Positions 183 to 10,977 of a stretch of 56,766 bases of DNA are shown here, piece by piece. Position 1 is the stretch's first letter; every line of letters starts with the position of its first letter. Position numbers and translations under genes: made by a program. Under the pieces are notes generated by a model. It saw only the letters and a program-made list of their open reading frames with translations. It was not told where the DNA came from and did no database searches. Source of the stretch: an uncultured Mediterraneibacter sp. (GTDB lineage: Bacteria > Bacillota > Clostridia > Lachnospirales > Lachnospiraceae); the NCBI RefSeq assembly GCF_944377805.1, contig NZ_CALWFZ010000014.1:1-56766 (forward strand), given 5' to 3'.

Positions 183-851
183 TTAATGTTCCTGCATAAC
201 AGCGCTGTCTTTGTGCACGCCTGTAATAGAGAATTCCACCCATTCCGCGATATTGGTCGCGTGATCTCCGATACGTTCCAGGTACTTTGTCACCATGATC
301 AGATCGAAGATTCTCTTTCCGTTCTCTCCTTTTTCTTCCTTGATGAAGTCAATCATCTCATCACGCACTTCATCAAAATACTGGTCGATCTTATCGTCAG
401 CCCGCATCACGCCCCGCGCAAGTTCCAGATCTCTGTTGACATAAGCCGTCACACTGTTGCGTACCATCTTGCTGACCTCAGAAGCCATTGTTCCGATCAC
501 ATGGATCTCCTCTGTAGCCGCAACTCCCTTCGAGGAGATAATAATCTCCGCAATGTCGGAAGTCTGATCTCCGATACGCTCCATATCCGTAATCATCTTA
601 AGAGCTGCCGAGATTCTTCTTAAGTCTTTTGCCACTGGCTGCTGCTGAAGAAGAAGCTTTAAGCACAGTCTCTCAATGTCCTTTTCGATCTGGTCGATCT
701 CTTCGTCCTCTCTGATAATGATCTTCGCCTGGTCGATACTGCCGTCCTTGAGCGCCTGTGTCGCTTTCGCGATCGCAGTCTCACAGAGTTCTCCCATACG
801 GGTAAGCTGCTCTTCAAGTAAATGCAGCTGCTCGTCAAATTTGTTACGCAT
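183..851 (-). CDS. phoU: Phosphate transport system regulatory protein PhoU
   Basis: A cytoplasmic all-helical protein that, in known systems, links the Pst transporter to the sensor kinase and represses the Pho response when phosphate is plentiful. At 222 aa it has the usual length. Two PhoU repeats are visible, each with the metal-binding signature: ERIGDQ at 91-96 and ERIGDH at 192-197. It starts 3 bp after pstB and is followed by a response regulator, the classical pst-phoU-phoP order. Expression should follow the Pho-box promoter ahead of pstS. The family assignment is secure. Confidence 0.97.
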   Translation of the reverse strand: MRNKFDEQLHLLEEQLTRMGELCETAIAKATQALKDGSIDQAKIIIREDEEIDQIEKDIERLCLKLLLQQQPVAKDLRRISAALKMITDMERIGDQTSDIAEIIISSKGVAATEEIHVIGTMASEVSKMVRNSVTAYVNRDLELARGVMRADDKIDQYFDEVRDEMIDFIKEEKGENGKRIFDLIMVTKYLERIGDHATNIAEWVEFSITGVHKDSAVMQEH

Positions 852-854
852 AGC

Positions 855-1604
855 TTAACCAAACCTCCCTGTAATATAGTCTTCCGTTCTTTTATCAGAC
901 GGTATTGAGAATAATTTTTCGGTGTCATTATATTCTACAACTTCTCCGAGAAGGAAGAAGGCGGTATTGTCCGATACACGCACTGCCTGCTGCATGTTAT
1001 GTGTGACCATAACTATAGTATAGTCTTTTTTCAGTTCCATCGCAAGGTCTTCGATTTTAGAGGTGGAGATCGGATCAAGAGCGGATGTCGGCTCATCCAT
1101 AAGAAGGACTTCCGGCTCTACCGCAAGCGCCCGCGCAATGCAGAGTCTCTGCTGCTGTCCGCCCGACATGCCAAGCGCGCTCGTCTTGAGACGGTCTTTG
1201 CACTCATCCCAGATAGCAGCGTTTCTGAGTGATCTTTCCACAATATCATCCAGTTTAGACTTGGAGCGCACGCCGTGCGTTCTCGGCCCATAGGCGATAT
1301 TATCATATATACTCATAGGAAACGGATTCGGCTTCTGGAATACCATTCCGACACGCTTTCTCAGAAGGTTTACATCCATACCTTTAAATATATTCTCTCC
1401 GTCAAGCTCGATCGAACCCTCGATACGGCATCCTTCCACCAGATCGTTCATACGGTTGATGGATTTTAAAAGAGTAGATTTACCACATCCGGAAGGTCCG
1501 ATGAAAGCGGTAATCTTGTTTGCTTCGATTTCAAGATTTACATCTTTGAGAGCTTTGAAATCCCCATAATATAAATCAAGATTCTTGATACTTATCTTCG
1601 ACAT
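855..1604 (-). CDS. pstB: Phosphate ABC transporter ATP-binding protein PstB
   Basis: ATPase of the high-affinity phosphate importer. At 249 aa it has the typical length. The Walker [10 protein letters not shown] is at 36-44, the ABC signature MSGGQQQR near 146-153, and Walker B LLMDEP near 167-172. The [13 protein letters not shown] stretch after the Q-loop is characteristic of PstB. It follows pstA by 24 bp and precedes phoU by 3 bp. It works as a dimer under the PstC/PstA membrane pair. Confidence 0.98.
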
Positions 1605-1628
1605 TTCCTTCCCCTTTCCTTTTCACTG

Positions 1629-2489
1629 TTATGCTTTCGTAAGCCTTCTGGCAATCACGCCTGAAAGCGCATTAATGCCCACTACGAGAATAAGCAGAAT
1701 TACTGCCGTTGCGTATGCCTGATCCATATACAGGCCTTCACTTGACAGATTGTACATGTGCAGCGCAAGCGTACGTCCTGATCCCATGATGCTGTCAGGA
1801 ATCTGAGCTACGGTTCCTGAGGTGTACATCAACGCCGCGGTCTCGCCTACGATACGCCCGATCGCCAGTATCACGCCTGCCAAAACACCGGGAATCGCAG
1901 AAGGAAGAACGATTCTAAATACCGTGCGCAGTTTGCCCGCGCCCAGTCCGAAGCTTCCCTCACGATAGGAATCCGGCACGGCTTTCAGCGCTTCCTCTGT
2001 CGTTCTCATAATCAGCGGTAGAATCATAATCGCCATAGTAAAGGCGCCCGCCAGAAGAGAAAATCCCCAGTCCAGAGCATTTACAAAGAAAAGCATGCCG
2101 AACAGGCCGTACACAATGGAAGGGATTCCGGAAAGTGTCTCTGTCGTCAGCCGGATGACTTCCACAAATTTGTTGCCCCGCCCCGCATATTCCACAAGGA
2201 AAATAGCGGAGAAGATCCCGAACGGAACCGCGATCAGCAGCGATAACAGTGTCATAACTATCGTGTTGACAAGCGCCGGAACTACCGAAGCATTCTCCGA
2301 CGTGTACTCTAACGAGAAGAGAGAGGGTGTTATGTGCGGCACACCGTTGATTAATATATACGCGATCAGGAAGATCAGAACAGCAAACGTTATGACCGCC
2401 GCCAGCATCACAAGCAGCATCATAATAAATGAACCCGGATGTTTCAGATAAGTTCTGAACTTATCGCCGATTGTCGTCTTATTACTCAT
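1629..2489 (-). CDS. pstA: Phosphate ABC transporter permease PstA
   Basis: One of the two membrane subunits of the phosphate importer, 286 aa with about six hydrophobic segments. The cytoplasmic coupling (EAA) loop EEALKAVPDSYREGSFGLGAG lies in the middle of the protein, followed by the conserved GRIVGETAALMY helix of PstA proteins. Its start codon lies within the end of pstC (8 bp overlap), suggesting translational coupling and equal amounts of the two permeases. Confidence 0.97.
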   Translation of the reverse strand: MSNKTTIGDKFRTYLKHPGSFIMMLLVMLAAVITFAVLIFLIAYILINGVPHITPSLFSLEYTSENASVVPALVNTIVMTLLSLLIAVPFGIFSAIFLVEYAGRGNKFVEVIRLTTETLSGIPSIVYGLFGMLFFVNALDWGFSLLAGAFTMAIMILPLIMRTTEEALKAVPDSYREGSFGLGAGKLRTVFRIVLPSAIPGVLAGVILAIGRIVGETAALMYTSGTVAQIPDSIMGSGRTLALHMYNLSSEGLYMDQAYATAVILLILVVGINALSGVIARRLTKA

Positions 2490-3375
2490 GATCCGCCCCC
2501 CTCTTTAATAAAGCTACACTGAAATTGATGATCAGGATGAACACAAAAAGTACAACTCCGGTAGCGATCAACGCCTCACGGTGCAGTCCTGTCGCGTATC
2601 CCATCTCAATTACGATGTTTCCTGTCAGGGTCCGGATACCGTCCAGGAGACTGGTCGTAAGTCTCGCCTGGTTTCCGACGATCATGATAACCGCCATTGT
2701 CTCTCCGATGGCGCGCCCGATTCCAAGCACGATCCCCGCAATCACACCCGATTTTGCCGCCGGGATGATTACACGGAAAATACTTCTCTCTTTCGTGGCG
2801 CCAAGCGCAAGAGATCCCTCATAATAATGGGTTGGAACTGCCCGCATCGCGCTCTCCGTTGTTCCGATAATAGTTGGAAGTATCATCATACCGAGAATCA
2901 GAGATGCGGTCAGAATGCTGTTTCCGTTTCCCGGATTATCTACAAGTCCGATCCTGCGAAGCGTTGTTCCAAACTCCCGAATTAACGGCACAACGACAAC
3001 CAGGCCAAAGAAGCCGTAAATAACAGATGGGATTCCGGCAAGCAGCTCCGTAGCCGCTTTCAGCGGTTTATAGATCCGTTTCGGGCAGTACATCGCCATG
3101 AATACCGAAGTGAGAATTCCGATAGGTACTCCGAAAATAATCGCGCCGGCCGTCACATACAAACTTCCGACAATCATCGAAAGAATTCCGTACTGCTCAC
3201 TGCTCGGCCTCCAGACCTCGCCTGTGATAAACTTTACAAATCCGATTTCGCGCATCGCGGGGATGCCATTTGCAAACAGGAAGATACAGATAAGCGCTAC
3301 CGCAAGGATGGATGCGCATGCCGCAATAAAGAAAACTCCCTGCATAATTTTTTCAGTCAATGCTTTTGATTTCAT
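2482..3375 (-). CDS. pstC: Phosphate ABC transporter permease PstC
   Basis: Partner membrane subunit of PstA, 297 aa. It has an N-terminal helix, the long periplasmic-side loop typical of PstC (residues about 30-65), the coupling loop ESAMRAVPTHYYEGSLALGA, and the GIGRAIGETMAVIMIVGN helix. An AGGAGG site lies just before the ATG. A 10-bp hairpin stands immediately upstream of that site (3388-3426) and separates pstC from the more abundant pstS message. Confidence 0.97.
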   Translation of the reverse strand: MKSKALTEKIMQGVFFIAACASILAVALICIFLFANGIPAMREIGFVKFITGEVWRPSSEQYGILSMIVGSLYVTAGAIIFGVPIGILTSVFMAMYCPKRIYKPLKAATELLAGIPSVIYGFFGLVVVVPLIREFGTTLRRIGLVDNPGNGNSILTASLILGMMILPTIIGTTESAMRAVPTHYYEGSLALGATKERSIFRVIIPAAKSGVIAGIVLGIGRAIGETMAVIMIVGNQARLTTSLLDGIRTLTGNIVIEMGYATGLHREALIATGVVLFVFILIINFSVALLKRGADHE

Positions 3376-3387
3376 TTTTTCCTCCTA

Positions 3388-3426
3388 ATGAGCCGGGAAG
3401 ACATGCCACATATCTGCCCGGCTCAT
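3388..3426 (-). terminator. Hairpin between pstS and pstC (attenuator or mRNA stabiliser)
   Basis: Perfect 10-bp arms, ATGAGCCGGG at 3388-3397 and CCCGGCTCAT at 3417-3426, with a 19-nt loop. There is no T-run after it in the direction of transcription. It is therefore better read as a partial terminator or 3' stabiliser that keeps the binding-protein message above that of the permeases. This is common in importer operons, but the effect here is inference. Confidence 0.6.
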
Positions 3427-3496
3427 AAATTCATAGCGGAAAATCGTTCACTTTAAGAATTTTTCTCCATTGTACTCTCAGTCCGTTGCGGTCTGA

Positions 3497-4408
3497 TTAG
3501 ATAGCATCCCATGTTGCCACATCGCCAACATAGATCGATTTTACCTGATCTGCTGACAGATCATCTGTCGGGTTCGCCTGGTTTACAATTACAGCGATAC
3601 CGTCTGTAGCGATCACTGTACCCTGAAGCTGTGAAGCCTCTTCATCAGTCAGTTCTCTTGATGCCATACCGATGTCATAGCTTCCCTCGATTGCGGATGT
3701 CATACCTGTTGTAGAATCCGTTGTCTGAAGTTCGATAGATGCGTTCGGGTTCACTCCGGCATAAGCCTCGATCAGCTTCTCCATCAGCGGAGATACAGAA
3801 GAAGAACCACCTACTACACAGCTTCCTTCCGGAGCCTCGCCTGCATATGCCTCTACTTCAGATACCGGAATGTATCCTTCCTCAGATACGACAGCCTGAC
3901 CTTCTGTACTCATGATAAATGCCATGAAATCTGCTGCCACCGGATTATCAAGGCTCTGGCTTACCGCTACGTTGAACGGTCTGGACACTGTATAGGATCC
4001 GTTCTCGATGTTCTCTGCCGTAGCCTCAGCTCCATCGATCTTAACCGCCTTTACGAGTGATTCGTCAAGAGAGCCAAGTGATATGTATCCGATCGCATAT
4101 TCGTTTTCAGATACAGTTGTCATCATAACTGATGTGTTGTTTGTAACCTGTGCATCAAGTGTTGTCAGGTCATTATCGTCATCATCCACTACACCAAACA
4201 GCTCAGTGAAAGCTCCTCTTGTACCTGAACCTTCCTCACGGGATACAACTGTAATCGCATTCGCCGCGTCCCAGTCTCCCGATCCGCCTTCGTCAGACGC
4301 CGCGTCTGTGCCCTGCGCTGACGTATCGTCAGATCCGCCGCATCCGACTGCGAGAGATGCAACCATTCCTGTTACTGCCAACATTGCGATAAACTTTTTC
4401 ATTTTCAT
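3497..4408 (-). CDS. pstS: Phosphate-binding lipoprotein PstS
   Basis: Captures phosphate outside the membrane and hands it to PstCA. At 303 aa it has a lipoprotein signal with the lipobox ending SLAVGC (Cys23) and a Gly/Ser/Asp-rich linker. The mature part carries the phosphate-site motifs REEGSGTRGAF and GGSSSVSPL of the PBP-like family. The order of these segments is circularly shifted relative to E. coli PstS, as is usual for clostridial PstS. It is the first gene of the pst operon, behind a Pho-box promoter. Confidence 0.95.
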   Translation of the reverse strand: MKMKKFIAMLAVTGMVASLAVGCGGSDDTSAQGTDAASDEGGSGDWDAANAITVVSREEGSGTRGAFTELFGVVDDDDNDLTTLDAQVTNNTSVMMTTVSENEYAIGYISLGSLDESLVKAVKIDGAEATAENIENGSYTVSRPFNVAVSQSLDNPVAADFMAFIMSTEGQAVVSEEGYIPVSEVEAYAGEAPEGSCVVGGSSSVSPLMEKLIEAYAGVNPNASIELQTTDSTTGMTSAIEGSYDIGMASRELTDEEASQLQGTVIATDGIAVIVNQANPTDDLSADQVKSIYVGDVATWDAI

Positions 4409-4556: not shown

Positions 4557-5330
4557 CTAACCAAGTAGAAATTCTCCCAGATCCTCAATCGTATAAAACA
4601 CTTTGTCAGCTCCCGCCTCCAGAAACCGGTCAGTGACTTCCTTGCACTTCACTTCTTTTTCCTCCGGTGAGAGCGCCGCGTATTCCTCCTGTGTCAGTCC
4701 CATCTCGGAACTTCCCACTACGATTCCGGCGGACCATACGCCTGCGTTCTTTCCCTCCTTAATATCAGATACCGTATCGCCCACTTTCAGGACACGGCGC
4801 ACCTTCTTTATCCCAAGCGCCTCAATGTTCCGGAAGATCATATAGGGATAGGGCCGTCCCTTCTGAGCGGTAGAATCAGGACTGAACCAGACGTCAGGCT
4901 CATATCCTTTTTCCCTTGCTTTCGGAACTATTATCTCCATCATCTTGTCTGTATATCCGGTTGTTGAACCTATTTTTATGCCGCTTCTTCTCAGTCGCTT
5001 CACCGTCTCCACTACGCCCGGTTTCGGGTCGGTATAATCCGAAAGGATTTTCAGAAGGTTCTCCTCAAATATCTGATAGAGCGCCTGAGCTTCCTCCTCA
5101 CCCGGCTCCCTTCCGTGCGTTTCTTTCCAGAGTTCTCTGATCCGCTCCATCTTCAGCATCGTCCGGATATGGTCGATCTTGAGCATCCCCATCGGCTCCC
5201 GCACTTCTTTTATCGTTGGCTCGACGCCATACTGCTTAAACACTTCCACAAACGCCCGGACCGGCGCCATGCATCCATAATCTACCGTAGTCCCTGCCCA
5301 GTCAAAAATAACCGCCTTAATTTTCTTCAT
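4557..5330 (-). CDS. phnX: Phosphonoacetaldehyde hydrolase (phosphonatase)
   Basis: Splits phosphonoacetaldehyde into acetaldehyde and phosphate, the second step of 2-AEP breakdown. A HAD-superfamily protein of 257 aa. The motif FDWAGT places the nucleophile Asp at residue 10, with Ala12 as in phosphonatases. Lys51 in EPMGMLK matches the Schiff-base lysine that distinguishes PhnX from other HAD enzymes. GDTVSDIKEG supplies the C-terminal acidic motif. Its start overlaps the end of phnW by 14 bp, so the two are translationally coupled. Confidence 0.96.
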   Translation of the reverse strand: MKKIKAVIFDWAGTTVDYGCMAPVRAFVEVFKQYGVEPTIKEVREPMGMLKIDHIRTMLKMERIRELWKETHGREPGEEEAQALYQIFEENLLKILSDYTDPKPGVVETVKRLRRSGIKIGSTTGYTDKMMEIIVPKAREKGYEPDVWFSPDSTAQKGRPYPYMIFRNIEALGIKKVRRVLKVGDTVSDIKEGKNAGVWSAGIVVGSSEMGLTQEEYAALSPEEKEVKCKEVTDRFLEAGADKVFYTIEDLGEFLLG

Positions 5331-6423
5331 GATTGTACTCCTCCAAAAAATTCTTCATCAAAGCACACACTTTCTCAATATCTTCCGGATATATCTCTCC
5401 GATGTTGCCGATTCGGAAAGTCTCAGCTTCCGTTACCTTTCCGGGATAGATCGCATATCCCCTGTCTTTAATATAATCGTACATCTGCGAAAAAGTAAAA
5501 TGGCAGTCTTCCGGATAGAAAAACGTAGTAATAATCGGTCCCTGATGTGTGCTGTCTATATACGGATGAATCCCAAGTTCCCCCATCCTCTCAATCAGCA
5601 GGCGGTTGTTCTCCCTGTAGCGCCTGTTTCTTGCCTGAATCCCGCCTTCTTCTCTGAGTTCTTTCATCGCCTGCGCGAAAGCCAGTACTACATGGGTCGG
5701 AGAGGTAAAGCGCCATTTGCCGTCCGCCTCCATTGTCTTCCACTGATCATAAAGATCAAGGGAGAGGCTCCGTGCTTTTCCGGCGCTCTGCTCCAGAAGA
5801 TCCATTCTCGCGATAACAAAGGAGAATCCCGGCACCCCCTGAATACATTTGTTCGCACTGCTGATGATAAAGTCAATCCCCCAGTCTTTTACGGGAATAT
5901 CCACGCCGCCGAAGCTGCTCATAGCATCTACAATGAATACTCTTCCCTTTTCTCTGACGACTCTGCCCACCGCCTCAATATCATTTAAAATACCTGAAGT
6001 CGTCTCGCTGTGCACCATAGACACATGGGTGATCGCCGGATCTGCGTCCAGCATCTCCCCTATCTTCTGTGCATTGGGAACTTGATTGTAATGTTCACTG
6101 TACATATGGTACTTCAGGCCCGCATGCTGTGCAATATCCGCCATTCTTTCCCCATAAGCACCGTTTGCACAGATCAGAAGCTCGTCTGACGTACCAATCA
6201 CACTCGTCAATACCGACTCCACGCCAAAGCTACCGCTCCCCTGCATGAGTACTGCTGTATATTCGTCAGAAGATACATGAGCCAGTTCAAGAAGCTCTTT
6301 TCTGATCTCCTGAGTGATCTGCTTATAGTCGTCATCCCATGTACAATGATCGAACAGCATCTGCTGTTTTACCGTGTCCGTTGTCGTCAGCGGCCCCGGC
6401 GTCAAAAGTTTATATAATTTCAT
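5317..6423 (-). CDS. phnW: 2-aminoethylphosphonate-pyruvate transaminase
   Basis: A PLP enzyme that moves the amino group of 2-AEP to pyruvate, giving phosphonoacetaldehyde and alanine. At 368 aa it matches the family. The N-terminal LLTPGPLTTT is the family signature, and the PLP lysine is Lys192 in SSANKCIQGVPG. It sits between the 2-AEP transporter genes and phnX and overlaps phnX, giving a complete uptake-and-cleavage pathway. The specificity is supported by sequence and by neighbours. Confidence 0.96.
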   Translation of the reverse strand: MKLYKLLTPGPLTTTDTVKQQMLFDHCTWDDDYKQITQEIRKELLELAHVSSDEYTAVLMQGSGSFGVESVLTSVIGTSDELLICANGAYGERMADIAQHAGLKYHMYSEHYNQVPNAQKIGEMLDADPAITHVSMVHSETTSGILNDIEAVGRVVREKGRVFIVDAMSSFGGVDIPVKDWGIDFIISSANKCIQGVPGFSFVIARMDLLEQSAGKARSLSLDLYDQWKTMEADGKWRFTSPTHVVLAFAQAMKELREEGGIQARNRRYRENNRLLIERMGELGIHPYIDSTHQGPIITTFFYPEDCHFTFSQMYDYIKDRGYAIYPGKVTEAETFRIGNIGEIYPEDIEKVCALMKNFLEEYNHEEN

Positions 6424-6455
6424 CTGCGTTTCCTCTTTTCACTAAATTTAGTCCG

Positions 6456-9113
6456 TTACATTCCCGCAGCCTCTTTGGCTTCTTCAGAGAGTGCTTCATG
6501 CTGCTTGAGAAGATCGACTGTCAGTTTCTCCGGAAATACTTTCGGATTTGTTGATTTGTTTGCTGCGTCTGTCGTCTCGCCGTTATACAGAGCATTTGGA
6601 TAATAGGACTGAAGTTCTTCTCTTCCGTTCTCGATGATGCACTGCGCCATCTCCATCGCAAGCGGGTTTGTGTCATCCCCCTTGTCAACAACAGCCACAG
6701 ATTCAGTCAGACTGAAATTGCCCTCAGCCGGATCAATATAGTCGATGGGAAGCCCATCCTCTTTATCCGCGACCGCCTGCTGCCGGAGTCCGAATCCGAT
6801 TGCCACCTCTCCGGCGCGCACCAGTTTAAGCGGCGCCGAGCCGGAATCCTCAAGATGATCCCCCACATTCTCATAAATACCTGCCAGCACATCTTTTGCT
6901 CCATCCTCTCCATACTCCGATACAAGAGCCTGCACAAGAAGCCATGCCGTAGAAGAAGCGGAAATATCCGTCACGGACACAAAGCCTTTGTATACCGGGT
7001 CCCCCAGATCTGCGATAGATTCCGGCATCGGAAGATTGTTCTCCTCCATCATCTCTGTATTCACTATAATCGTTCCCTCCTGAGAAGTGATGGGCGCGCA
7101 GTATGGCTCAAACTCATCTGTTGTATCCACGTCAAATGACAGCTCCTGAAACATGGAATTCTGCTCCTGAGCGCTCTCTACATAGAACGTACTCATCGTC
7201 ACCATATCCGCTTCGATGTCCGCCCCCTCTGCCAGGAGTCTTCCTCCCAATTCAGAAGTACCGAAGGTCTGGAATACGTACTTGCCTTCGTATCCGTTAC
7301 TGTCCAGAGCATTCTCCATTGCGGTGATCGCCTCCTCATCGGCGTTGGAGTAGATAATCACCTGATCCTCGGATGAACCGCCTCCGCAGCCGGTCAGTCC
7401 GGCGCCGGATACTGTCACTGCCGCGGCCAGCGTAAATACTGCCACTCTCTTTAAACTCATTTTTCTTATCTTTTTCATATCAACTATATTCTCCTTTCTT
7501 TTGCTCATCTGAGCAAGTTTCCTAAACACTGCCCTTGCGACCAGATTGGTAAGTAGAATTAATAACGACAGGACAAAGATTTCATTAAATTCATTAAAAT
7601 ACTGCAATTCTTTAATCCTGGTCGTAATAACCATTGTCCGCGTACCCGCAATAAATATGACGGCGCTTACTGTGACCATTGCGTTTACAAAATAATAACT
7701 GAATACTTCCAGCAGTGTGGATAACGCATTGGGCGTTACTACTCTTACAATAGTCTTAAACCAGTTATCTCCCATAAGCATTGCCGTTGTCTCCCAGGAC
7801 GCGTTCATCTTGGAAAGTGAGTTCTTCATCATCAGATATGGAGTGGAGAAAAAATGCACAATATTACATACAATGATGATGGGGAACGTGTTCTGAAGAG
7901 GCGTTCCCGTAAATACGAACAGATAGGCAAGGCCGATAACCATACCCGGAATCGTATTTGTCACAAGGGCGATGCTGTCGATCACTTTCTTCAGTTTCCC
8001 ACTGACCGTGCTTCTCGCCGTCACCAAAGCAGCTCCATAGGAAAGAATCGTTCCCACAAGGGCGGTCGCTGCCGCCACCATAAGCGAGTTCAGATACACG
8101 CCGTACAGCTGCCTGTCCTCAAATACAGCCTGCACATGTTCCATCGTAAATTCCATTCGGTATGGCCACTCCTCGATAAACGGTACAATAAACATTACAA
8201 GAAATATACTGAGTGTACATATGATAATCGCTCCGCTCAGCGCCCCAAAGACAGCGTCTCTTTTCTTTCCTTTTTTCAGTTCAATCGGAGAGATCTTATT
8301 GTATCTCACATTATATTTTTCAAGAACGTGAAGTACCGTGATACTGACGATTGACGGTATCATCATAACCAGAGCTACCACTGCGCCGTTTCCGAAGTCA
8401 GGTACGCTGCCAAGCATCTCTGTATAAAGAACGCTGGCTACCACCTCAAACCGCCCGCCTACAGAAGCCGGAATACCAAAGTCCGTAAAGCACAGAAAAA
8501 AAGTCTGAATAAACGATGTGGCAAGCGTTCCCAATAGCGGAATCAATATGGTCATCCGGAAAGTCCTCAGCGGAGAATCCCCCATCAGCCGGGAAACAAC
8601 CATGAACCTTTTGTCAATGTATCCCATCGCGTTGTGAATCAGCGTAAACGCGATAGGAAGCGTGTAGACTACATACCCGAGCAGCAGTCCGTTGAAACCG
8701 TATATGTCAAAGAGCTGTCTTCCGAACAGCCGGGTCAGAAGGCCCTGTTTCCCAAAAGAATAAATAATCGCAAATCCGTATGTAATCGTCGGCAGCAGCA
8801 TGGGAAGAATCGCAGCCTTGCTGATCAGCCATTTGTACCTCCTGCCCAGATTCGTATAATGAACCGCGTACGCGAGAATAAACGCCAGTATCGTAGTGAC
8901 AAGCGCGCTGCACACAGAAATGAGAATACTGTTTCCAAAAGCGGTGAGAAATCCTCTTCCCGTAAGCACTTCCGCATAATGGGAAAGGGACGGACTGTTT
9001 CCGTCTCCCGTAAAGGACTTTAAAATCACGCTGATCACAGGCACAGCAAGAAATCCGGCAAAAAAGACTGAAACAAGAATAAAAATAAGTTTAATCTCTC
9101 TGTTCTTTCTCAT
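6456..9113 (-). CDS. 2-AEP ABC transporter: tandem permease fused in frame to its substrate-binding lipoprotein
   Basis: One 885-aa reading frame holds two normally separate proteins. Residues about 1-545 are a duplicated binding-protein-dependent permease, two six-helix halves like fused PhnU and PhnV. Residues 546-885 are a complete binding protein with its own lipoprotein signal starting MKKIRKMSLKR and lipobox LTGC. I start at the ATG at 9113 (RBS GAGGTGG, 13 bp after the ATPase stop) and not at 9197, which would run into the ATPase gene. At the junction a good ribosome site AAAGGAG (7497-7491) stands 12 nt before an internal ATG at 7478, and both other frames hit stops within a few codons. 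Either a real fusion, or a one-base change in an A-run that removed the permease stop. Specificity for 2-AEP comes from phnW and phnX next door. Confidence 0.85.
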   Translation of the reverse strand: MRKNREIKLIFILVSVFFAGFLAVPVISVILKSFTGDGNSPSLSHYAEVLTGRGFLTAFGNSILISVCSALVTTILAFILAYAVHYTNLGRRYKWLISKAAILPMLLPTITYGFAIIYSFGKQGLLTRLFGRQLFDIYGFNGLLLGYVVYTLPIAFTLIHNAMGYIDKRFMVVSRLMGDSPLRTFRMTILIPLLGTLATSFIQTFFLCFTDFGIPASVGGRFEVVASVLYTEMLGSVPDFGNGAVVALVMMIPSIVSITVLHVLEKYNVRYNKISPIELKKGKKRDAVFGALSGAIIICTLSIFLVMFIVPFIEEWPYRMEFTMEHVQAVFEDRQLYGVYLNSLMVAAATALVGTILSYGAALVTARSTVSGKLKKVIDSIALVTNTIPGMVIGLAYLFVFTGTPLQNTFPIIIVCNIVHFFSTPYLMMKNSLSKMNASWETTAMLMGDNWFKTIVRVVTPNALSTLLEVFSYYFVNAMVTVSAVIFIAGTRTMVITTRIKELQYFNEFNEIFVLSLLILLTNLVARAVFRKLAQMSKRKENIVDMKKIRKMSLKRVAVFTLAAAVTVSGAGLTGCGGGSSEDQVIIYSNADEEAITAMENALDSNGYEGKYVFQTFGTSELGGRLLAEGADIEADMVTMSTFYVESAQEQNSMFQELSFDVDTTDEFEPYCAPITSQEGTIIVNTEMMEENNLPMPESIADLGDPVYKGFVSVTDISASSTAWLLVQALVSEYGEDGAKDVLAGIYENVGDHLEDSGSAPLKLVRAGEVAIGFGLRQQAVADKEDGLPIDYIDPAEGNFSLTESVAVVDKGDDTNPLAMEMAQCIIENGREELQSYYPNALYNGETTDAANKSTNPKVFPEKLTVDLLKQHEALSEEAKEAAGM

Positions 9114-9126
9114 CACACCCACCTCT

Positions 9127-9897
9127 TCAGCACACCTGCGCCTGCTCCTGAAGCTGCCCCGCGAAGAGTGTATAGATATTATTCTTTTTGATCTCAAGCT
9201 GATTCAGAATAAACTTCTTTACGAATCCATCCTCAGGTTTCGCGATGATCTCTTCGGGTTTTCCGAACTGGGCGATCTTTCCTTCATTAATAATCATCAC
9301 CCGGTTGGAAAGCGTGAGCGCTTCTTCCGGATCATGAGTCACTATGATTGTTGTAAGATTGTATTCCCTTGCAATGGCCCTGATCCTGTCTTTAATAGAT
9401 TCCTTAATCACGCCGTCCAGGGCGCTTAACGGTTCGTCAAGCAGAAGTATCTTCGGTTTCATTACCATCGTCCTGGCGAGAGCGGCTCTCTGCTTCTGAC
9501 CTCCGGAGAGCTGGCTGATCCTCTTGGAGAGATGTTCCTCCAGACCAAGGAGACTGATCAGCTCCTCCACCTCTTCTCTGGAAGATAACTCAGGATTGTT
9601 CCTGAGCCCGTATGTGATATTCTGGTATACATTGAGATTCGGAAAGAGCGCGTAGTCCTGAAAGACAATGTTGAAGCCTCTCTTTTCCATAGGTACATTC
9701 GTAATATCTCTGCCGTTAAAGATGATCTTTCCGCCGTCCGAGTCCACGATCCCGAGGATCAGATTCAGAAGTGTTGTCTTGCCGCATCCGGAGGGTCCAA
9801 GTATCGATACGATCTCTCCGTCCTCAATATTCAGACTGATCCCGGAAAGTACCGGCGTACCGTCATAACTTTTCTTTACATTTCTCAGTTCAAGCAT
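9127..9897 (-). CDS. 2-AEP ABC transporter ATP-binding protein (PhnT-like)
   Basis: The energising subunit of the importer, 256 aa. Walker A GPSGCGKTT is at 34-42, signature LSGGQKQR at 130-137, Walker B LLLDEP at 151-156, followed by the D-loop SALD and the switch His in VTHDPEEA. It belongs to the Fe3+/spermidine/2-AEP group of ATPases; the substrate is inferred from the downstream phnW-phnX. It is the first gene of the operon, about 80 nt downstream of a TATAAT promoter with a Pho-box-like repeat upstream. Confidence 0.9.
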   Translation of the reverse strand: MLELRNVKKSYDGTPVLSGISLNIEDGEIVSILGPSGCGKTTLLNLILGIVDSDGGKIIFNGRDITNVPMEKRGFNIVFQDYALFPNLNVYQNITYGLRNNPELSSREEVEELISLLGLEEHLSKRISQLSGGQKQRAALARTMVMKPKILLLDEPLSALDGVIKESIKDRIRAIAREYNLTTIIVTHDPEEALTLSNRVMIINEGKIAQFGKPEEIIAKPEDGFVKKFILNQLEIKKNNIYTLFAGQLQEQAQVC

Positions 9898-10080: not shown

Positions 10081-10093
10081 GTAGATTTTCTAC
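10081..10093. promoter_or_regulatory. Palindrome GTAGA-N3-TCTAC at the rpiR stop codon (candidate operator)
   Basis: The palindrome GTAGATTTTCTAC spans the rpiR stop codon upstream of the 2-AEP operon. The same GTAGA-N3-TCTAC core occurs at 10987-10999 just before the rpiR start. A pair of identical sites flanking a regulator gene suggests operators for that regulator; this is inference. Confidence 0.45.
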
Positions 10094-10977
10094 TGTTTTG
10101 TGCGATAGTCATACGCCTTCCCGCGCACGACTTTTTCACATCTGTTCAACTGTCCCGCATAATGGTCATAATCTGTAGAGATAATCCCCATATAGATCAT
10201 ATCTACAAGGAGGATCTGCGTGGATCTGGAGAAAATCGCATTGCCGTAAAAGGTCTGATCCTGACCTGTCAGGATCAGAATATCTGCGTATCTGCTGATC
10301 GTAGATTCTTTAAAATTCGTAACCGCGATCGTTCGCGCTCCCGCCTTTTTTGCCGAGCGCATTGCATCCACCGTATCCTTTGACTCACCTGAATATGAGA
10401 TCCCAACGGCCACGTCCCCGTCGGTAAGCCGCCCTGCCGCGATCTGCTGTAAATAGCAGTCCGTAAAATGTCGGCAGGGAAGCCCCAGATACAGAAGTTT
10501 TGTCAGAAGATCCTGCGCCATGACCTCAGAGTTCTCCACCCCATATATGTCGATCAGACGTGCGTTTTTCAAAGCGTCTATTACCCGTTGAAATGTCTTT
10601 CCTGAAAAATTCTTCAGCGTATCCTTGAGCATACGCTCTGTCGTCATCGTCACGCTGACCGGGATCTCGTCGAGGGAGGCCTTTGCATCCAGCGTATAGC
10701 CGTACATGAGCTGGGAGTATCCATCCTCCTCACTGCTCTCTGCTTTGGCCAGTTCTGCCACAAGCTGATAACGGAAATCTCTGTACCCTTCAAATCCCGC
10801 TGCCTTAAGCATACGAAGCACTGTGGGCTGGCTTACTTTTGCTTCTTTAGCCAGACGGTCCAGCGGAAGCGCTGACGCCTGATCTATGTGCTCCAGTATA
10901 TAGTCTGCCGCCTGTTTCTCTGATTTTCTCAGATCCGCATATGCGGATTCAATCTGTGTTGTAATGCTGTTTTTCAT
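10090..10977 (-). CDS. MurR/RpiR family transcriptional regulator (HTH plus SIS domain)
   Basis: 295 aa. An N-terminal HTH_6 domain occupies residues about 1-80, with recognition segment AKEAKVSQPTVLRMLKAAGF. A C-terminal SIS sugar-phosphate-binding domain follows (about 125-260), with GVENSEVMAQ and AVGISYSGESKDT. Such regulators sense phosphosugars or related phosphorylated ligands. Upstream lies glmS and downstream the 2-AEP operon, and candidate operators flank the gene on both sides. Control of the 2-AEP genes is therefore plausible but not shown; glmS or itself are alternatives. Confidence 0.9.
   Translation of the reverse strand: MKNSITTQIESAYADLRKSEKQAADYILEHIDQASALPLDRLAKEAKVSQPTVLRMLKAAGFEGYRDFRYQLVAELAKAESSEEDGYSQLMYGYTLDAKASLDEIPVSVTMTTERMLKDTLKNFSGKTFQRVIDALKNARLIDIYGVENSEVMAQDLLTKLLYLGLPCRHFTDCYLQQIAAGRLTDGDVAVGISYSGESKDTVDAMRSAKKAGARTIAVTNFKESTISRYADILILTGQDQTFYGNAIFSRSTQILLVDMIYMGIISTDYDHYAGQLNRCEKVVRGKAYDYRTKQ

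Follow-up and report, generated by a model that had tools for sequence, protein, structure and literature searches.

We consider it fairly probable that the gene at positions 6456..9113 (minus strand) of the window, a stretch of 56,766 nucleotides from an uncultured Mediterraneibacter sp., encodes a genuine and inherited chimera of an importer permease and its substrate-binding protein (SBP), in which the SBP is tethered, with two outputs in the window's genome and other lineages committed to the tethered form. The sequence-only reading had described a permease running into a complete lipoprotein in one frame, and this holds: 885 codons are read from 9113 to 6456 without an internal stop, and Pfam recognises both domains along the chain, BPD_transp_1 twice and then SBP_bac_8/SBP_bac_6, as expected of a type I ABC importer with a fused binding domain. 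Many divergent relatives keep this frame open as well, which is more than would be expected by chance. Coordinates of the gene, its junction and its neighbours are collected in Table 1.

Table 1. Features of the fused gene, its junction and its operon in the window
Feature	Position	Strand	Basis or remark
RpiR-type regulator upstream of importer genes	10090..10977	-	HTH_6 + SIS
ATPase of importer	9127..9897	-	best NCBIfam PhnT2, 293 bits, below cut-off 457.7
Fused permease-SBP gene	6456..9113	-	885 codons + stop
Tandem (double) permease	7479..9113	-	residues 1-545, two BPD_transp_1 stretches
Basic linker after last permease helix	7446..7538	-	residues 526-556
Internal Shine-Dalgarno AAAGGAG	7491..7497	-	sequence
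Internal ATG of lipoprotein, codon 546	7476..7478	-	sequence; Met = residue 546
Lipoprotein signal sequence / candidate 13th membrane helix	7389..7445	-	residues 557-575
Lipobox cysteine, residue 576 (LTGC)	7386..7388	-	sequence
Substrate-binding domain, mature part	6459..7388	-	residues 576-885, Pfam SBP_bac_8/SBP_bac_6
PhnW, 2-AEP-pyruvate transaminase	5317..6423	-	TIGR02326 518.9 bits, above cut-off 400.8
PhnX, phosphonoacetaldehyde hydrolase	4557..5330	-	TIGR01422 366.6 bits, above cut-off 220

The permease part gives a fold match to the ferric importer FbpBC (chain 9j4r_A, E 1.3e-11), and the SBP part matches AfuA (4r72) and Salmonella stm0429 (4r6y), placing it in the AfuA/FbpA fold. The tandem permease and SBP are thus like FbpBC and AfuA/FbpA in fold, whereas those PDB entries hold separate chains serving other substrates and the two parts are fused here. 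Calculated masses are 97.1 kDa for the full chain, 36.5 kDa for the pre-SBP and 33.4 kDa for the mature SBP, and a search of the window's genome at E 0.001 returned no second copy of this SBP.

The fused gene sits between the ATPase gene and PhnW-PhnX, and both PhnW and PhnX, which adjoin the importer, score above their cut-offs, as expected of a 2-AEP degradation operon. The importer parts resemble the NCBIfam 2-AEP importer equivalogs TIGR03262/TIGR03261 and nevertheless miss the cut-offs (PhnU2, 352.2 against 593.25 bits; phnS2, 92.1 against 392.75 bits), so the assignment of 2-AEP as the probable substrate rests on the operon. Among 46 non-redundant loci of the named-genome scan (see below) with at least 10,500 bases each, the ATPase lies near the importer in 46/46, PhnW and PhnX in 43/46 each, and an RpiR-type regulator in 38/46. 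Split by state, all three enzymes' genes stand beside the gene in 24/24 fused context loci, 6 of these without a lipobox, and the split ones have the ATPase in 22/22, PhnW in 19/22 and PhnX in 19/22.

The junction retains what the sequence-only reading had called the relics of two genes: an AAAGGAG motif, an ATG behind it, and stops in both other frames close to that ATG (TAG at 7486-7484 and TGA at 7482-7480), all of which we find as described. Residues 546-576 (MKKIRKMSLKR..LTGC) carry the basic n-region, hydrophobic stretch and lipobox cysteine of a lipoprotein, with the hydropathy window spanning residues 557-576. The motif stands 12 nt from the ATG, which is on the long side, and its energy of -6.9 compares with -6.7 expected from its amino acids alone (synonymous shuffles, p 0.465). 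The linker before the signal has a net charge of +7 in the window and of at least +3 in all 52 fused rows of the comparison below (medians +8 with and +7 without a lipobox); so basic a stretch is as expected for a cytoplasmic segment. AlphaFold places a helix at residues 553-573 of the window's protein, at pLDDT <50, and at 556-580 in that of locus L078, at low confidence. Model confidence is low throughout residues 542-582, and neither of these two models shows docking of the binding domain, the linker having pLDDT <50.

Genome samples in the strict sense were those of the window's family, order and class and of Bifidobacterium only. In the family sample of 397 genomes, a match at E 1e-50 was obtained in 46, and in 37 of these the homologue had at least 50% identity. 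The sequence-only reading had envisaged a lone outlier among two-gene relatives; instead, permease end and SBP lie in one frame in 15 of these 37 genomes, the window's counted. The other 22 comprise 19 with two separate genes, one whose SBP is missing from this locus (L028), one with a truncated SBP (L035) and one in which the SBP lies elsewhere (L125). The order sample (392 genomes, 24 matched at E 1e-80, with G476 and G490 read in part) held five fused loci, four already counted in the family sample; outside the family the fusion was seen in 1/16 (G574), and in the class sample in 0/4 further genomes with a homologue. Fusion is thus frequent within the window's family but rare outside it in the order and class samples.

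Beyond the window's family it occurs also in Bifidobacterium, the genus of L118, in which 39/112 genomes have a homologue and 37 of these 39 one open frame. Twenty-four Bifidobacterium loci were read; 22 are fused, and the lipobox is absent from 22/22. Exceptions in the genus are L172 (G784), which is split, and L173 (G766), whose permease frame is broken. When named genomes were scanned, with the best 80 of 365 loci taken and one-frame matches favoured, the fusion was found among those 80 in Agathobaculum, Romboutsia, Peptacetobacter and Cellulosilyticum.

For comparison across all sources, loci without both parts (L028, L127, L128 and L139) were set aside, and the 139 loci with both parts were reduced to 119 by removing 20 duplicates and to 112 by removing seven more (six second hits of loci already included and one short piece). 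These 112 non-redundant loci comprise 60 split and 52 fused, the latter made up of 15 from the genome samples and 37 from the best 80 of 365 named loci. L125, first scored as fused by the script, has its SBP elsewhere and was scored with the split loci; the lipobox counts omit L035 (split n=59), and the Shine-Dalgarno counts omit both L035 and L125 (split n=58). At L119 (G384) the permease frame overruns the SBP start by roughly 30 codons in a different frame, an arrangement that is, going by the reading frames, a long gene overlap and not a fusion.

The lipobox is absent from 12/52 fused and 0/59 split loci (Fisher p 5e-5, kinship ignored); for three loci (L022, L027 and L096) the automatic lipobox call was overruled by hand, the cysteine lying inside the hydrophobic stretch. 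Claveliimonas bilis and Merdimonas faecis are examples of species with a fused gene that has the lipobox, and Blautia caecimuris DSM 29492 and Bifidobacterium pullorum of those with one that lacks it. On the tree, lipobox loss takes at least six changes, and when fusion and lipobox loss are compared over independent pairs, about 1 in 10 pairs differs, which is not significant. The lipobox and the internal start go together: an ATG in frame and behind a Shine-Dalgarno occurs in 39/40 fused loci with a lipobox and in 0/12 without, at an energy cut-off of -5.25 that was chosen after the values were seen. With other cut-offs the 40 lipobox loci give 39 at -4.5 and -5, 38 at -5.5, 33 at -6 and 24 at -7, and the lipobox-less ones 0/12 at every cut-off tried. 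Over independent pairs, lipobox and internal start vary the same way in 4/4 in nearly all pairings (p 0.125); with fewer than six such pairs, a level of 0.05 is unreachable.

Median Shine-Dalgarno energies are -8.3 in fused loci with a lipobox, -2.75 in fused loci without and -9.1 in split loci. The signal stretch itself has a hydropathy of 2.28 in lipobox-less fused loci against 1.82 in both the fused loci with a lipobox and the split ones (p 1.5e-5, kinship ignored). Synonymous shuffles of the internal Shine-Dalgarno reach p 0.05 in 2/40 genes and fall on the expected side in 35/40, a weak sign of selection beyond the protein code that does not prove use of the internal start. The core of the motif is distributed over the three codon positions (18, 14 and 6 of 39, with one lacking a core), and this argues against a purely protein cause, yet it is no test.

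In the mechanism that we propose, the tandem permease would be followed by a brief basic segment in the cytoplasm and then by the lipoprotein signal sequence, which would serve as a 13th membrane helix and hold the binding domain on the outer side, attached to the channel that it serves. In this, the simplest topology, the permease C-terminus would be inside, helix 13 would run outward and the SBP would lie outside; with both membrane halves in one chain, each complete transporter would have a single tethered binding domain. Since the ATG, its Shine-Dalgarno and the lipobox are all kept in the window, two outputs are most likely there, the fused chain and a free lipoprotein from the internal start, whose use in translation is probable from its retention; cleavage of the fused chain by signal peptidase II might occur as well. 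Both release routes had been raised in the sequence-only reading, which expected an unusual subunit ratio either way. Other lineages have lost both the internal start and the lipobox and have a more hydrophobic anchor, and in these the tethered form alone would be left. A usual free lipoprotein is impossible where the lipobox is missing, as in the fused Bifidobacterium loci read, and the fused chain is therefore most likely the working form there. That one gene thus supplies a channel with a tethered SBP and a reserve of free lipoprotein, and that it has been caught in mid-evolution, is to our mind slightly better than an even bet. If so, present-day genomes would display two genes, a fusion with both starts and lipobox, a fusion without them, and perhaps a reversal, and the change of state would set the ratio of SBP to channel, from an excess to exactly one per transporter.

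A processed polyprotein is one rival reading. One chain would be made, Lgt and signal peptidase II would act at the lipobox, permease and lipoprotein would result at 1:1, and the internal start would be little used. Consistent with this, the lipobox is kept in 40/52 fused loci with a signal hydropathy like that of split lipoproteins, the window's Shine-Dalgarno does not exceed the strength expected from its amino acids, and one locus (L068) keeps the lipobox without an internal ATG and Shine-Dalgarno. If cleavage did everything, however, the ATG and Shine-Dalgarno found in 39/40 lipobox loci would be needless, and among the entries listed by the literature search none reported a lipoprotein being cut off the end of a polytopic chain. 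We regard processing as an unlikely account, with L068 as the foremost candidate for release by cleavage alone.

On trees obtained by quick searches without bootstrap, with horizontal transfer and in-place change counted together, the fused and split states of the 112 loci require no fewer than 15 changes, 10 of them forced by well-supported branches; none of 500 label shuffles gave a number as low as that observed, and removal of 15 long or partial rows left 14 changes over 97 rows. Judged from these trees, the fusion, which spans several genera, is either recurrent or ancestral. Among fused rows the linker changed in length at least 30 times, always in frame, compared with the minimum of 15 state changes, and frame changes among split rows number at least 23. 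This suggests, but is no proof, that the junction frame is held in fused rows, since the tree counts are minima and the split rows are near saturation.

These figures bear on a neutral read-through, in which an intergenic stop was lost, nothing depends on the fusion, function falls to the free lipoprotein from the internal start and the longer permease does no harm. Such a view gains from the 15 or more changes between the states, from the retention of internal starts and from the split state of sister species. It fits poorly, on the other hand, with the frame being retained across at least 30 linker-length changes, with Bifidobacterium keeping the fusion in 37/39 genomes that have a homologue, and with the lipobox-less lineages, for which no usual free lipoprotein is possible and which keep the operon in 6/6. 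We think neutral read-through quite improbable.

Lesions of several kinds occur among the loci. Four of the 15 fused loci of the family sample carry one, namely deletions in L024, an in-frame TGA soon after the beginning of the permease in L026, and breaks in L122 and L124. L024 and L093, from the same genome (Sellimonas caecigallum), have a 1227-codon frame that runs through two deletions and holds the ATPase, permease, SBP and C-terminal part of PhnW; it could be real or an assembly fault. At L028/L127 (G296, a single contig) the permease 3' end, inspected by eye, runs into the C-terminal part of PhnW, and the SBP absent from this junction marks a deletion in the operon. At L035/L126 (G028) the SBP is internally deleted after its signal sequence, with the permease stop at the junction present.

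It may be asked whether the fusion is itself one step in the loss of a decaying operon. The locus without an SBP here (L028/G296), the shortened SBP of L035/G028, the two deletions of L024/L093, the in-frame TGA of L026, the breaks of L122 and L124 and a frame break near the permease start of L092 would all fit such a course. The window's fused gene and its neighbours, however, are open and full-length against their models, and a set of 42 fused sequences shares many invariant residues; decay is a very improbable explanation of the fused state.

The junction in close relatives speaks for an inherited chimera. L042, L094 and L046, at 87-89% identity, are fused in the same frame as the window, and so, with the same open frame, are the more distant L010, L047 and L048; L010 (G035) is from a single-contig genome and L047 from a record titled complete. 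In the alignment, no indel separates the window from any of these six between the A4 run (7502-7499) and the ATG, and L042 has one extra codon just past the ATG. A base lost from the A4 run, suspected in the sequence-only reading and favoured by the out-of-frame stops right at the ATG, by the draft state of the genome (45 contigs) and by split sisters, is scarcely credible as a sequencing or assembly error when fused relatives share the frame without an indel, and we reject it.

Within the Mediterraneibacter clade, 12 sampled sister loci are split, with a longer permease tail. Here a permease stop is followed by a spacer of varying length and by the SBP's own ATG behind a Shine-Dalgarno. In one of the split loci, L039, the sequence around the SBP start still aligns with the fused junction, and the aligned ATG is likely to be the SBP start. 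Because the nearest deeper neighbours are fused, the split state of this clade may be a reversal, a direction that the tree cannot prove.

Permeases joined to their binding proteins are already established in OpuA, GlnPQ and MalF-MalE, as far as the available parts of the sources go. The MalF-MalE construct of Licht (2019) reportedly has a single binding domain on a membrane subunit, the fusion being said to involve one of two membrane subunits. In the accessible text on this system, MalE fused to MalF is transport-competent (PMC7756565), and it is like the present protein in having a single binding domain on a membrane subunit and unlike it in belonging to the maltose system. OpuA, the glycine betaine importer of Lactococcus, is described in the consulted excerpt as having its binding domain covalently joined to the membrane subunit, with an anchoring sequence of hydrophobic character and a linker of 11 residues (PMC11065425). 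Going by that excerpt, the covalent attachment and the hydrophobic anchor are as here, whereas OpuA has two OpuABC subunits, two binding domains and another substrate, against what would be one chain and one domain in our importer, most fused members of which, unlike OpuA, keep a lipobox and internal start. In GlnPQ, binding domains are linked to the membrane domain (PMC8025302, in part); there are two in tandem, as against a single C-terminal domain here. The 2-AEP importers PhnSTUV and AepXVW/AepSTU are tied to PhnWX, with pfam13343 in AepX/AepS, and they are described with a separate binding protein, the available portion of that paper mentioning no permease-SBP fusion (PMC8316502); in the window's gene the two are fused.

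None of the titles and abstracts that our literature search found described a fused 2-AEP importer. What looks new here is the importer family, the single binding domain that each transporter would carry, and the graded series of states from free to tethered. SBPs tend to be in excess over the channel and may be permease-fused, according to the part of a review available (PMC9045158). A family whose members apparently range from free to one-per-transporter tethered SBPs, with close relatives in either state, would be a natural experiment on whether SBP excess is needed, and equally one on the fixation of gene fusions. An internal lipoprotein start of this kind may be masked by automatic gene calling.

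The phosphonate operon (4557-9897) directly adjoins an apparent PstSCAB-PhoU phosphate operon (183-4408) on the same strand, its genes other than that of PstS named by eye. In the PstS encoded there (3497-4408 of the window, minus strand) the two halves are swapped relative to 4q8r, and their order equals that of PstS 2 in 4h1x, so this circular permutation is already known from a solved structure.
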